64,000 nucleotides of DNA from Comamonas testosteroni TK102 (GTDB lineage: Bacteria > Pseudomonadota > Gammaproteobacteria > Burkholderiales > Burkholderiaceae_C): NCBI RefSeq assembly GCF_000739375.1, contig NZ_CP006704.1, forward strand, positions 5,208,001 through 5,272,000. Reading direction: 5' to 3'. Shown here piece by piece: positions 46,063 to 49,199 of this stretch (position 1 is its first letter; each line of letters starts with the position of its first letter). Under the pieces are notes generated by a model. The model made no database searches, had not been told where the DNA came from, and saw nothing but the letters and a program-made list of their open reading frames with translations. The translations under genes were made by a program, and so were the position numbers.

Positions 46063-47064
46063 TCAATCCGCCTTGAAGCCCGTCGCAGCCACTGCCTTGC
46101 CCCATTTGACGGTATCGGCAGCAATGATGTCGGCAAACTGCTGCGCACTGGTGCCCGTGACCCTGAAGCCTGCCTCCTGCAGCCGCGCCCTGCCGTCGCC
46201 CGATTGCAGGACCTTGAGCAGATCGGCATTGAGCTTGCTCACCACGTCCGCGGGTGTCCTGGCGGGCGCCACGATGCCGAACCAGGAGCTGAACTCCAGG
46301 TTGCCAAAGCCCTGCTCCTTCATGGTCGGCAACTCGAGCAACTGCTCCACACGCGCGCTGCCCGTGCTTCCCAGGGCCACCAGCTTGCCGGCGCGCACCT
46401 GCGGGATCGCCATGCCGGAGGAAGCGAACACCCCCTGCACATCGCCGCTGAAAATGCCGCTCAAGGCATCCGAAGTGCTCTTGTAGTGCACCACCTCGGG
46501 TTTGGACTGCACGGCATCGCCAAACATATAGGCCCCGAAATGCCCCGGCGTGCCCGCTCCGAAAGTGGCCATGAACAAGCCGTTTTGCTGCCGGGTCCAG
46601 GCCACAAAGTCCCTGACGTTGCGCGCCTTGACCTTTTCGGGATTGACCAGCAGCACGAAGTCGGAACTCACCACCTGGCTGACGGGGGCGAAATCCTTGC
46701 GCGGTTGGTAGGCAAGTCGTTGGTAGGTATTGGGTGCAATGCTGAGCTGTCCGGTCTCGGCCAGCATGATGGTGTAGCCGTCGGCCGGTGCACGCGCCGC
46801 CTCGCTGGCTGCGATCAGGCCGGCGGCACCGGGCTTGTTGTCCACCACCACGCCCACGCCGCCCCATGCTTCGGAAAGCTTCTGTGCCAGCAGCCGGGCC
46901 ACTACATCGGGTCCCGTGCCCGCCGGAAAGCCCACGATCATGCGCACCGTCTTGCTCGGATAAGCCGTCTGGGCCTGAGCGACGCCCAGGGCTGCACTGC
47001 CGCCGGCCAGCAGTGCCAGGGCCAGCAGCCGACGTCGCCAGGCCCGTGCTAAGAACGTGTTCAC
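46063..47064 (-). CDS. Bug/TctC-family periplasmic solute-binding receptor, copy 3
   Basis: 333 residues from a GTG at 47064 with GAGG 5 nt upstream. The signal peptide is basic: ARAWRRRLLALALLAGGSAALGVAQAQ. The Bug fold is seen in VRMIVGFPAGTGPDVVARLL and VVVDNKPGAAGLIAAS. It is clearly different from the pair at 37482-39586. The GTG lies inside the terminal repeat of the element at 47052-47320. The frame is also open through that element to an ATG at 47361 behind GGAG, which would add 99 odd residues before the signal peptide. The shorter form fits secretion. It is downstream of the DUF3237 gene, probably co-transcribed. Confidence 0.85.
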   Translation of the reverse strand: MNTFLARAWRRRLLALALLAGGSAALGVAQAQTAYPSKTVRMIVGFPAGTGPDVVARLLAQKLSEAWGGVGVVVDNKPGAAGLIAASEAARAPADGYTIMLAETGQLSIAPNTYQRLAYQPRKDFAPVSQVVSSDFVLLVNPEKVKARNVRDFVAWTRQQNGLFMATFGAGTPGHFGAYMFGDAVQSKPEVVHYKSTSDALSGIFSGDVQGVFASSGMAIPQVRAGKLVALGSTGSARVEQLLELPTMKEQGFGNLEFSSWFGIVAPARTPADVVSKLNADLLKVLQSGDGRARLQEAGFRVTGTSAQQFADIIAADTVKWGKAVAATGFKAD

Positions 47065-47320
47065 GATTTCCTCGTGCCGCGACAGAGGCTTTGCGGGATG
47101 GGATGCAAGGCGCGATACCGCAGCAATAGCCGCGCTATTGCGAGGATTCGCAACGCCGCAGACCGCCCGCAAAGCCGCTGTCCCGCAGGGTTGGAGCGCA
47201 ATCGGGCGATTTGCTGCGCGCTGACTCTTGCTTGCACCCCGGTGCAAGCGGCGAGCCATCGCTTCGAACTCATCCCGATTGCGCTCCAACGCGGCTGCGT
47301 AGAGATCGTGAACACGTTCT
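47052..47320. mobile_element. 269-bp MITE-like element with perfect terminal inverted repeats
   Basis: Terminal repeats AGAACGTGTTCACGAT (47052-47067) and its exact complement (47305-47320), 16 bp each. If the ends are taken one base in, TTA flanks both sides on the minus strand, a possible 3-bp target duplication. Inside are three more perfect inverted pairs: GGCTTTGCGGG (47087-47097) with 47166-47176, enclosing GCAATAGC-cgc-GCTATTGC (47123-47141); GTTGGAGCGCAATCGGG (47190-47206) with 47274-47290, enclosing GCTTGCACC-cc-GGTGCAAGC (47230-47249). No transposase is encoded. One minus-strand frame is open throughout. Confidence 0.7.
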
Positions 47321-47361
47321 AAAGCGGGTCCAGGCAGGTTCTGGGCTTGCAGTACTTTCAT
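47065..47361 (-). CDS. Possible 99-codon upstream frame across the inverted-repeat element
   Basis: From the ATG at 47361, with GGAG 8 nt upstream, a frame starts MKVLQAQNLPGPALERVHDLY. It passes through the whole element (NRDEFEAMARRLHRG, then IALQPCGTAALRAVCG, then ASHPAKPLSRHEEIVNTF) and continues in frame into the Bug receptor. The good ribosome site 28 bp after the DUF3237 stop suggests that it was the original receptor start, or that a separate peptide is made. Most of the protein sequence derives from the element, so this is a weak gene call. Confidence 0.3.
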
Positions 47362-47389
47362 GTTTTTGTCTCCTTGTTGCGATGCTGTT

Positions 47390-47875
47390 TCACAGCACTT
47401 CGAAAAATCGCATGACGACCTGCTCCGGAAAGCGCGCTCCCGCACCCACGAACAGGCGCTGCCCCAGCCAGGCAAAGCGCTTGGAGGCCGTTTCAAAGCG
47501 AGGCGCACAGCGAAAGTAGATCGCCGAGGGATCGACGCTCTCGCCGCGGCGCAGACGCTGCATGAGCTCGGCCGGCCCGGTGCGCAAGGCATGGTTGCTC
47601 ACATAGATCAGATCGCCGCCGTCGGTTTCGATGACATAGCGCGCGTCCAGCTCGGCCACTTCCTCGCTGACCAGCAGCTGGAAGTCGGCCCCGCCCGGCA
47701 GCACACGCGCCGACCAGTCCTCTCCCTGCACCTGGCCGCCGACGATGGGAATCACACGCCGCAAGCCGCGTGTCGTTTCGCCCACCTCCTGCGCCGGCCC
47801 TACCTGCACGCGAAATTCGGCAAAGTGGCGCAGCCCTGGAGCGACAATCTGGAAATCATGGTTTGGCGACAGCAT
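47390..47875 (-). CDS. DUF3237 family protein
   Basis: 161 residues from the ATG at 47875, with AGGAG 4 nt upstream; the frame before it lies in the regulator gene region and is not favoured. The DUF3237 pattern is seen in FRVQVGPAQEVGETTRGLRRVIPIVGG, then WSARVLPGGADFQLL, YVIETDGGDLIYVSN and YFRCAPRFETAS (separate blocks). The family is a small beta-barrel of unknown activity, often next to catabolic genes. It is divergent from a LuxR-type regulator (31 bp between starts) and followed by a Bug receptor. Confidence 0.85.
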   Translation of the reverse strand: MLSPNHDFQIVAPGLRHFAEFRVQVGPAQEVGETTRGLRRVIPIVGGQVQGEDWSARVLPGGADFQLLVSEEVAELDARYVIETDGGDLIYVSNHALRTGPAELMQRLRRGESVDPSAIYFRCAPRFETASKRFAWLGQRLFVGAGARFPEQVVMRFFEVL

Positions 47876-47906
47876 TGCTCTCCTTGCGATGTCTAGGCAC
47901 AGGGAC

Positions 47907-48794: not shown

Positions 48795-48840
48795 ATGCCG
48801 GGGATTCGCCGGTGCTGTGCCCGGCCGAGGAAGAAAGTGT

Positions 48841-49199
48841 GAAGTGCGCCGATAAGCCGGATTCTGTGCACAACGGTTGCCCGCCATGTGACCGCCATTA
48901 ATCTTGGCCATCAGTCGCCTGATGGCTCGGTGCTACCTACCCGCACACTCCGGGGGCCCCGTCAACGTGTGCCTACTTGGTATTGCTGCGCGTAGAGATT
49001 GCCCGTTTCACCCTGGTTGGTCTGCCTTGCGGCACTCCTGCCAGACTCGTCTCTGTTGCTCTGATCCTCACCTCACGGTGGACAGCTGTTAGCTGCTACG
49101 CCGCCCTATGCAGTCCGGACGTTCCTCCAGTACGGTCTTTCGACCCAACGCAAGCGTTGGCCTTTCGGCTAGTACCAGCGGCGGTCTGGCGCACTTCAC
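48841..49199 (-). ncRNA. rnpB: RNase P RNA (class A)
   Basis: RNA component of the tRNA 5'-processing ribozyme. On the minus strand it begins GUGAAGUGCGCC, whose GAAGUGCGCC pairs with GGCGCACUUC at the 3' end (helix P1; 49188-49197 with 48841-48850). The conserved GGAGGAACGUCCGGACUGC near the 5' end and ACAGAAUCCGGCUUAU near the 3' end are the P4 and J-region hallmarks. GGUAGGUAGCACCGAGCC lies in the middle. No protein gene competes for this stretch. Exact ends are approximate. Confidence 0.93.

Follow-up and report, generated by a model that had tools for sequence, protein, structure and literature searches.

The window analysed here, a stretch of 64,000 nucleotides from Comamonas testosteroni TK102 (contig NZ_CP006704.1, positions 5,208,001 to 5,272,000), carries on its minus strand a gene for a Bug/TctC receptor preceded by a DUF3237 gene in the same direction, and the early part of the receptor gene holds a short, highly structured insertion that is almost certainly a MITE. 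The features of the locus, in window coordinates, are as follows.

46063..47361, minus strand: Bug/TctC receptor gene with in-frame insertion, 432 codons plus stop (Pfam PF03401)
47050..47052, no strand: left copy of the target duplication, TAA on plus and TTA on minus (single TTA at the empty site of genome G013, locus L019)
47053..47319, no strand: whole element (MITE), 267 bp (copies, empty sites, fold)
47053..47070, plus strand: left terminal inverted repeat, type GAACGTGTTNACGATCTC (repeat analysis, copy alignment)
47062..47073, minus strand: possible internal start, GAGG, 5 nt, GTG, which would give MNTFLARAWRRRLLALALL... (sequence only)
47078..47185, no strand: arm A hairpin, closed by an outer stem of 47078-47097 paired to 47166-47185 (inverted-repeat analysis)
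47095..47168, plus strand: arm A, conserved hairpin core, 74 nt (covariance model R2, 92.3 bits, E 7e-23 in a 291-base stretch)
47185..47295, no strand: arm B hairpin, closed by an outer stem of 47185-47206 paired to 47274-47295 (inverted-repeat analysis)
47204..47276, minus strand: arm B, putative diverged core in inverted orientation (R2, 21.5 bits)
47302..47319, minus strand: right terminal inverted repeat (repeat analysis, copy alignment)
47320..47322, no strand: right copy of the target duplication (empty-site comparison)
47369..47375, minus strand: the receptor's own ribosome site AAGGAGA, which lies upstream of the element (sequence, empty-site relatives)
47390..47896, minus strand: upstream DUF3237 gene, start provisional (Pfam PF11578)

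A preliminary description of this DNA had placed the element at 47052..47320; the element itself stands, while each edge moves inward by one base, because that span takes in one base of each TAA duplicate. The outer inverted pair with its nested inner pairs and the perfect 16-bp ends were found as described (L172 being the window's own place in our collection), and the TTA observed on both sides is a 3-bp target duplication, as the single TTA at the G013 empty site indicates. The RNA is predicted to fold at -164.7 kcal/mol on the minus strand (z -11.1) and -170.1 kcal/mol on the plus strand (z -12.7), and on either strand none of 200 dinucleotide shuffles folded as well as the element. At 267 bp, with 18-bp terminal inverted repeats, no transposase and no Pfam match in two translations, it has the anatomy of a MITE. 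Each arm is a copy of a hairpin core of about 74 nt: arm A was one of the sequences used to build R2, which limits what its own score conveys, and arm B matches the model at E 3.4e-5 in 291 bases with filters off and at 0.0075 across the whole window. Since the model finds two inverted cores, the element is best read as end - core - inverted core - end. The sole match at the Rfam gathering level in the window is Bacterial RNase P class A RNA, at 48837-49197 on the minus strand.

The earlier suggestion of a non-autonomous mobile element is borne out by many copies, the 3-bp duplication, empty orthologous sites and congeneric IS5-family elements with equal ends. The host genome (6.06 Mb, a single contig) gave 13 near-full alignments, the window's included, one half copy and smaller pieces. 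A remnant in this genome (L014, G000:C1:475829-475884) keeps both ends with almost nothing between them, as if internally deleted. At least partial matches at E<=1e-5 were obtained in 29/61 genomes, namely 27/37 of the genus (own included) and 2/24 outside it; in several genomes, e.g., G012 and G005, the listed matches span one arm only. A family-level search at E<=1e-30 was positive in 13/299 genomes (own included) and 9/141 genera, and a core 24-mer retrieved 32 stretches from named public records, 30 of them Comamonas and two from a MAG labelled Acidovorax. Altogether 106 places were collected, of which 100 are full copies distinct by their 30-base flanks, a rule under which a few pairs (e.g., L008/L124, L039/L138, L024/L111) seem to be one site shared between related genomes; a copy truncated by a contig end (L131) was dropped from the counts of ends and pairs, leaving 99. 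The commonest length is 266 bp. Identical 3-mers flank 53 of the 100 copies, 15 more have TNA on both sides and 32 have neither. The copies are thus dispersed and numerous in the host and its relatives, and the outcome named beforehand as speaking against a mobile element, a lone copy confined to one orthologous site and showing substitutions of the coding type, was looked for and not seen. Phage sequences gave no match to the element. Two plasmid records match it, six match a typed core query and two carry a third end type. A 30-base end query returned 69 records, mostly at chance-level E, among them Xanthomonas records matching 21/23 bases (E 2), several of which are annotated as IS5-family transposase.

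The candidate source of transposase lies in the congeners. A protein search returned P0002, in which the frame of an IS5-type transposase continues into the element, and the transposase part has relatives at E<=1e-10 in 9/53 genus genomes. The partner insertion sequences are 841-848 bp long, belong to the IS5 family and carry either of the two MITE end types (GARCGTGTTNRCGATCTY-like or GARCSTGTTCAAAGTCTY), so that the ends of the MITE are also those of autonomous elements; TNA duplications are exact in 8 of the 11 tabulated, and of the four with the window's end type one has an exact duplication. MITE and insertion sequence have 15-17 terminal bases in common, and their best internal match is 24 bases at E 0.020. 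The partner frames match NCBIfam NF033580 and Pfam DUF4096 and DDE_Tnp_1, the last two in overlapping frames; the second frame (from L066) scores 156.1 bits against an NF033580 cut-off of 110, which identifies an IS5-type DDE transposase, and the first frame (from L065) alone scores 93.8, under the cut-off. By length, by their ends of about 18 bp and by the overlapping DUF4096/DDE frames, the partners resemble the IS427 group (IS1248, ISPaes and others), for which the rows and passages of the source that concern this group give 832-865 bp, inverted repeats of about 13-21 bp and, in some members, two overlapping ORFs with a frameshift motif (PMC3281130). They differ in the duplication, TNA of 3 bp here vs 2 bp in most of those rows and 4 in one (PMC3281130), and the window element has only the ends in common with the group and no transposase. 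The host genome gave no match to the first partner transposase query at E<=1e-10, and the best full-length match to the second is 34% identical; because no close partner transposase is present there, its copies may be old and immobile. Ten DUF4096 loci of the host genome were considered as partners, and none has these ends within 3 substitutions. In G032, a partner insertion sequence adjoins a MITE with a CTNAG junction in common (L074, L087, L088, L090), as if one target attracts the next.

Five of the 23 genus genomes compared have the DUF3237 locus; two of them, G021 and G013 (about 95% identical), hold the receptor gene without the element, reading CCCGCT-TTG-GCACA and CCCGCT-TTA-GCACG, respectively, where the window has TTA-element-TTA. 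G006, G023 and G036 (70-74% identical) lack the element as well, since their sequence between the flanking matches falls 272-273 bp short of the window's. Both empty-site relatives have a receptor of 342 codons whose start ATG is preceded by AAGGAGA. In the window the insertion follows codon 14, by inspection in the n-region of the signal peptide, and since 267 bp plus the 3-bp duplication make 270 bp, exactly 90 codons are added, without a stop, and the frame survives; one strand is indeed open throughout the element and joined to the Bug frame, as first described, giving 432 codons from the ATG at 47361. The GTG in the terminal repeat had been taken for the likely receptor start, which does not hold, because the likely native start, the ATG at 47361 (minus) with its ribosome site, lies upstream and is where both relatives start. 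The GTG at 47064-47062 is nevertheless a possible internal start created by the element: read outward, the left end gives GAGGAAATC-GTG and then MNTFLARAWRRRLLALALLAGG..., by inspection a good beginning for a signal peptide. Whether a GTG is present is decided by end position 10, which is C at both ends in 36/99 copies, and the GTG is therefore a chance product of one variant of the end, of use at this site at most. Of the roles the preliminary description had offered, the supply of translation signals (GAGG, 5 nt, GTG) is possible alongside the native ones retained upstream, and the hiding of such signals in RNA structure is plausible from the predicted fold. The addition of a peptide is formally correct, with 90 in-frame codons, and does not extend to the element being a general peptide donor, as neither a clear synonymous excess nor more than 2 proteins at E<=0.01 among 62 candidates (scored on residues 14-103) was found.

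Genes around the copies were predicted with a home-made model trained on 37 ORFs of the window, and three of the 100 copies, with flanks too short, were left out. Twenty of the remaining 97 lie inside a predicted ORF (18 or 20 under slightly different rules), 11 of these 20 within 60 bp of the predicted ORF start; 42 lie between co-directional genes, 17 between divergent and 16 between convergent ones, and 2 are of unknown context. Targeting of stop codons was also considered: 18 of 79 non-coding copies are at a stop codon vs 16.0 expected from non-coding TNA sites (P 0.30), so no such preference is shown.

The interior of the element has a far wider distribution than the element as a whole. 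At E<=1e-6, a covariance model built from 15 cores (R1) was positive in 45/300 genomes and 27/134 genera of the order, and R2, built from 57 cores, in 87/369 genomes and 64/271 genera of the class and in 58/398 genomes and 41/212 genera of the phylum; 25 of the 58 phylum-wide positives are outside the window's class, 19 of them in a single family (f247). These E-values are rough, given a short calibration, and the fixed layout of the elements therefore serves as an independent check. Apart from the window, bounding inverted repeats with a score of at least 13 were found at 52 of the 59 loci with a core, a score reached at 1 of 192 random positions of such loci; the other seven are L015, L173, L200, L205, L206, L210 and L214, some of which are at contig ends. 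The 54 elements of those 52 loci form three size groups, of 152-196 bp (20 elements), 239-281 bp (30) and 299-367 bp (4). The core, positioned in model coordinates, starts 40-50 bp (about 44) from one element end in 53 of them and at 32 bp in the remaining one (L225). Of six loci from other classes (L238 and L240-L244, all f247), five keep the layout, the exception (L244) being near a contig end. Two inverted cores with starts about 105 nt apart occur in 19 of 60 sources, a scan that omitted at least 16 of the core loci (L003, L034, L038, L039, L068, L141, L158, L163, L166, L169, L181, L182, L184, L187, L190 and L197). Some elements, of about 160-170 bp, hold arm A by itself; those at L164-L167 and L068 have the window's end type, and those at L161-L163 and on a Cupriavidus conjugative plasmid (L017) have GGGAYSCTCTGCACGAATC-like ends. 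On that plasmid the single-arm element is near an IS481-family transposase gene. The host genome has two further cores without the window's end type, one (L229, G000:C1:6018045-6018116) inside weak 267-bp ends that start with TAGGGTCTGTTGATATT and score 11, the other (L015, G000:C1:859286-859358) with no ends found.

The ends around the core fall, by eye, into at least eight mutually dissimilar classes, e.g., GAACGTGTTCACGATC, GGGCTCGTTAATGAAT, GGGAACCTCTGCACGAATC, TACTCTTTCAAGGTAA, TGTACTGCGCC, ATCCTAAAAGCGGCAG, TACTAACCCGAACACTGG and AGTCCACTGAATCATTG, some of which may be related to one another, GAACGTGTTCACGATC and GGGCTCGTTAATGAAT perhaps as distant relatives. Under a strict rule, exact duplications in the 54 elements are 3 bp, TNA, in 11, and 4 bp in 9, with none in 34; eight of the 4-bp cases are palindromic CTAG, which is indistinguishable from part of the end, so that only CTTG (L163) and CTAA (L199) support a 4-bp class. 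If there are two duplication lengths, no fewer than two classes of transposase would be involved, which is likely and not proven. Judged by these sequence comparisons, the core is common to small elements with several dissimilar ends, in this class and at least one other of the phylum. A search of ten core loci against Rfam at E<=1 gave six matches, of which one was above its gathering score, a fluoride riboswitch beside an element; a chance-level match to Histone3 (E 0.84) touches the second arm of L180, and on this search the core reaches the gathering score of no Rfam family. The riboswitch (L193:1363-1461) is near an element with GTGTAGTGTTTCG ends.

Conservation of the core extends to its pairing. 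In an alignment of 82 rows (A4), pairing holds in 94.3% of cells, both sides have changed in 412 cells vs 113 +- 14 after shuffling, and covariation is 0.641 vs 0.178 shuffled and 0.07-0.11 with the partners slid. The structure model guided alignments A2 to A4; when 53 cores were aligned by sequence only, 90-92% was paired vs 66-69% after shuffling. On the 5' side the letters gCaAGGCGC stay constant, and on the 3' side GCAAC. Cells with G.U outnumber those with A.C by 42 to 3 in 52 representatives (those of the 82 rows below 85% mutual identity, omitting pair 5-80, mostly a constant U.G, and the loop-closing pair 40-46) and by 63 to 8 when all 82 rows are counted. The A2 set, an earlier one, gave 18 to 7 after dropping the reverse-strand L164, L165 and L173, which are palindromic self-matches and do not appear in A3; a later step excluded L163 and L197. 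The sequence-only alignments gave 50/6, 37/6 and 49/7, omitting pairs in which a wobble is commonest or which are paired in under half of the rows. Because G.U is far above A.C, the counts point to the core strand as a folded single strand, and we infer that the core probably acts as such, whether as RNA or as single-stranded DNA in replication or transposition. Covariance models tolerate G.U better than A.C, and the excess is seen only in rows gathered by such models; still, the few bits at stake per A.C seem to us too little to explain it.

Several other accounts of the element at this locus have to be weighed. That it serves the DUF3237-Bug operon as a fixed regulatory RNA or as a terminator, as a fold of such strength might invite one to think, is scarcely credible, being already contradicted by the dispersed copies and by the empty sites, with the element missing in all five relatives that have the locus; the window, moreover, has no Rfam gathering match except RNase P. 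A peptide donor comparable to the Rickettsia palindromic element, able to spread into genes thanks to a frame that does no harm in proteins, would be in keeping with the 90-codon insertion in the receptor and with a length divisible by 3 in 6/20 intra-ORF copies vs 9/77 others (a hand count). We regard it as quite improbable, given that the commonest length, 266 bp, breaks the frame once the duplication is added, that 77 of 97 copies lie outside predicted ORFs, and that one of the only two proteins detected is the window's own family. In addition, no frame of the 99 aligned copies has a clear synonymous excess, the largest figure over the whole element being 0.31 observed vs 0.27 expected in one plus-strand frame (0.36 vs 0.28 in the 3' half for the same frame), so a coding function is unsupported; neither a conserved peptide nor frequent in-frame insertion was found. 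It is also unlikely, if less so, that the insertion blocks secretion of the receptor by setting a long leader before the signal peptide, the gene being a pseudogene in the making. The signal peptide would indeed not be N-terminal if the native ATG is used, but the gene has neither stop nor frameshift, and dN/dS over its whole length is 0.10-0.17 (0.171 and 0.104 vs the two empty-site relatives, 0.157 between these), values that mostly reflect time that may predate the insertion. The insertion is also found in the protein cluster P0001, for which 8 member sequences and 1 contig are listed; by eye, the representative of this cluster and the window protein differ in three residues. With purifying selection across the gene, the receptor is most likely still made.

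A different question is whether the core does anything for the element. It is possible, though on the doubtful side, that this is an ordinary MITE whose core is old filler without function, the arms being alike through mutual repair templating of the hairpins. Within Comamonas, the two ends of a copy change together, with perfect 18-bp ends in 40/99 copies against a shuffled mean of 8.5 and maximum of 17, and mean end mismatches of 0.90 vs 2.96 shuffled; a second Watson-Crick type is present in three or more copies at 14 of 65 stem pairs. Over all stems of these BLAST-gathered copies G.T and A.C are nearly equal (87 vs 80 cells), as a process at the DNA level would lead one to expect, and this set alone has no G.U excess. 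Filler would not account, however, for a core that keeps its unpaired letters and its pairing across many genera while the ends differ, nor does the core have a convincing counterpart in the 11 partner insertion sequences, as the internal match at E 0.020 is the best available. The alternative that we put forward tentatively, as a real possibility somewhat short of an even chance, is that the core is an exchangeable structured RNA or single-stranded DNA domain, carried for a very long time by non-autonomous transposons that depend on different classes of transposase, in this bacterial class and in at least one other of the phylum, much as SINE domains are, and kept because it offers what the ends do not, for example access to a host factor.

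Taken together, a MITE with an IS427-like partner acting in trans, inserted in frame in a receptor that is still made, and with a conserved core, is in our judgement quite likely as a joint reading. An IS427-like transposase of the IS5 family would recognise the 18-bp ends in trans and insert the element at TNA with a 3-bp duplication, here after receptor codon 14. Translation from the native ATG would yield a receptor with a long leader, and translation from the GTG of the left end would restore an N-terminal signal peptide, which fits export better; ribosomes arriving from the ATG may open the stem that would otherwise hide the GTG start. The interior consists of two inverted conserved cores and not of transposase debris, and the core may help the elements persist or move, whichever transposase serves them.

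Among known systems, the sources on ERIC/RU, RUP and Correia/NEMIS describe, in the sections dealing with these bacterial MITEs, elements alike in being short, with terminal inverted repeats, target duplication, strong fold, dispersed copies and occasional copies in genes (PMC10969869, PMC2759123). The Rickettsia palindromic elements, and RU in enterobacterial genes, are alike in their in-frame insertion into coding genes, according to the same sections (PMC10969869, PMC2759123); unlike the former, the window element lacks a conserved peptide, nor do its copies hint at selection to keep the frame. To our knowledge, the sharing of a core between elements with dissimilar ends, which here extends across many genera and sets the element apart from ERIC/RU, RUP and Correia/NEMIS, is not known for those families. 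A further likeness is offered by the highly conserved domains of SINEs and the V domain of the MITE MER6, where, in the part of the source devoted to them, one module is likewise found in non-autonomous elements of different origin and the reason for its conservation is debated (PMC6887750). The SINE domains are eukaryotic, and the likeness is in the way of working, with no relation of sequence claimed. In a mostly open-access literature, ISfinder being outside its scope, we recognised no prior description of element or core, which may exist; a conserved structured core across differently ended small elements is apparently new.

Bacterial MITEs are usually seen as decayed insertion sequences whose ends define them. 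In the present case it is the inside, one or two hairpins in a fixed layout, that is conserved in many genera, and the ends vary, which reverses the usual view. The covariance model can be used to annotate small elements that are liable to be mistaken for ORFs by gene callers, and it becomes testable why an element without a transposase of its own would keep a structured core. In C. testosteroni itself, the window copy offers a clear-cut natural example of an insertion that preserves the reading frame and may re-create the beginning of an exported protein.
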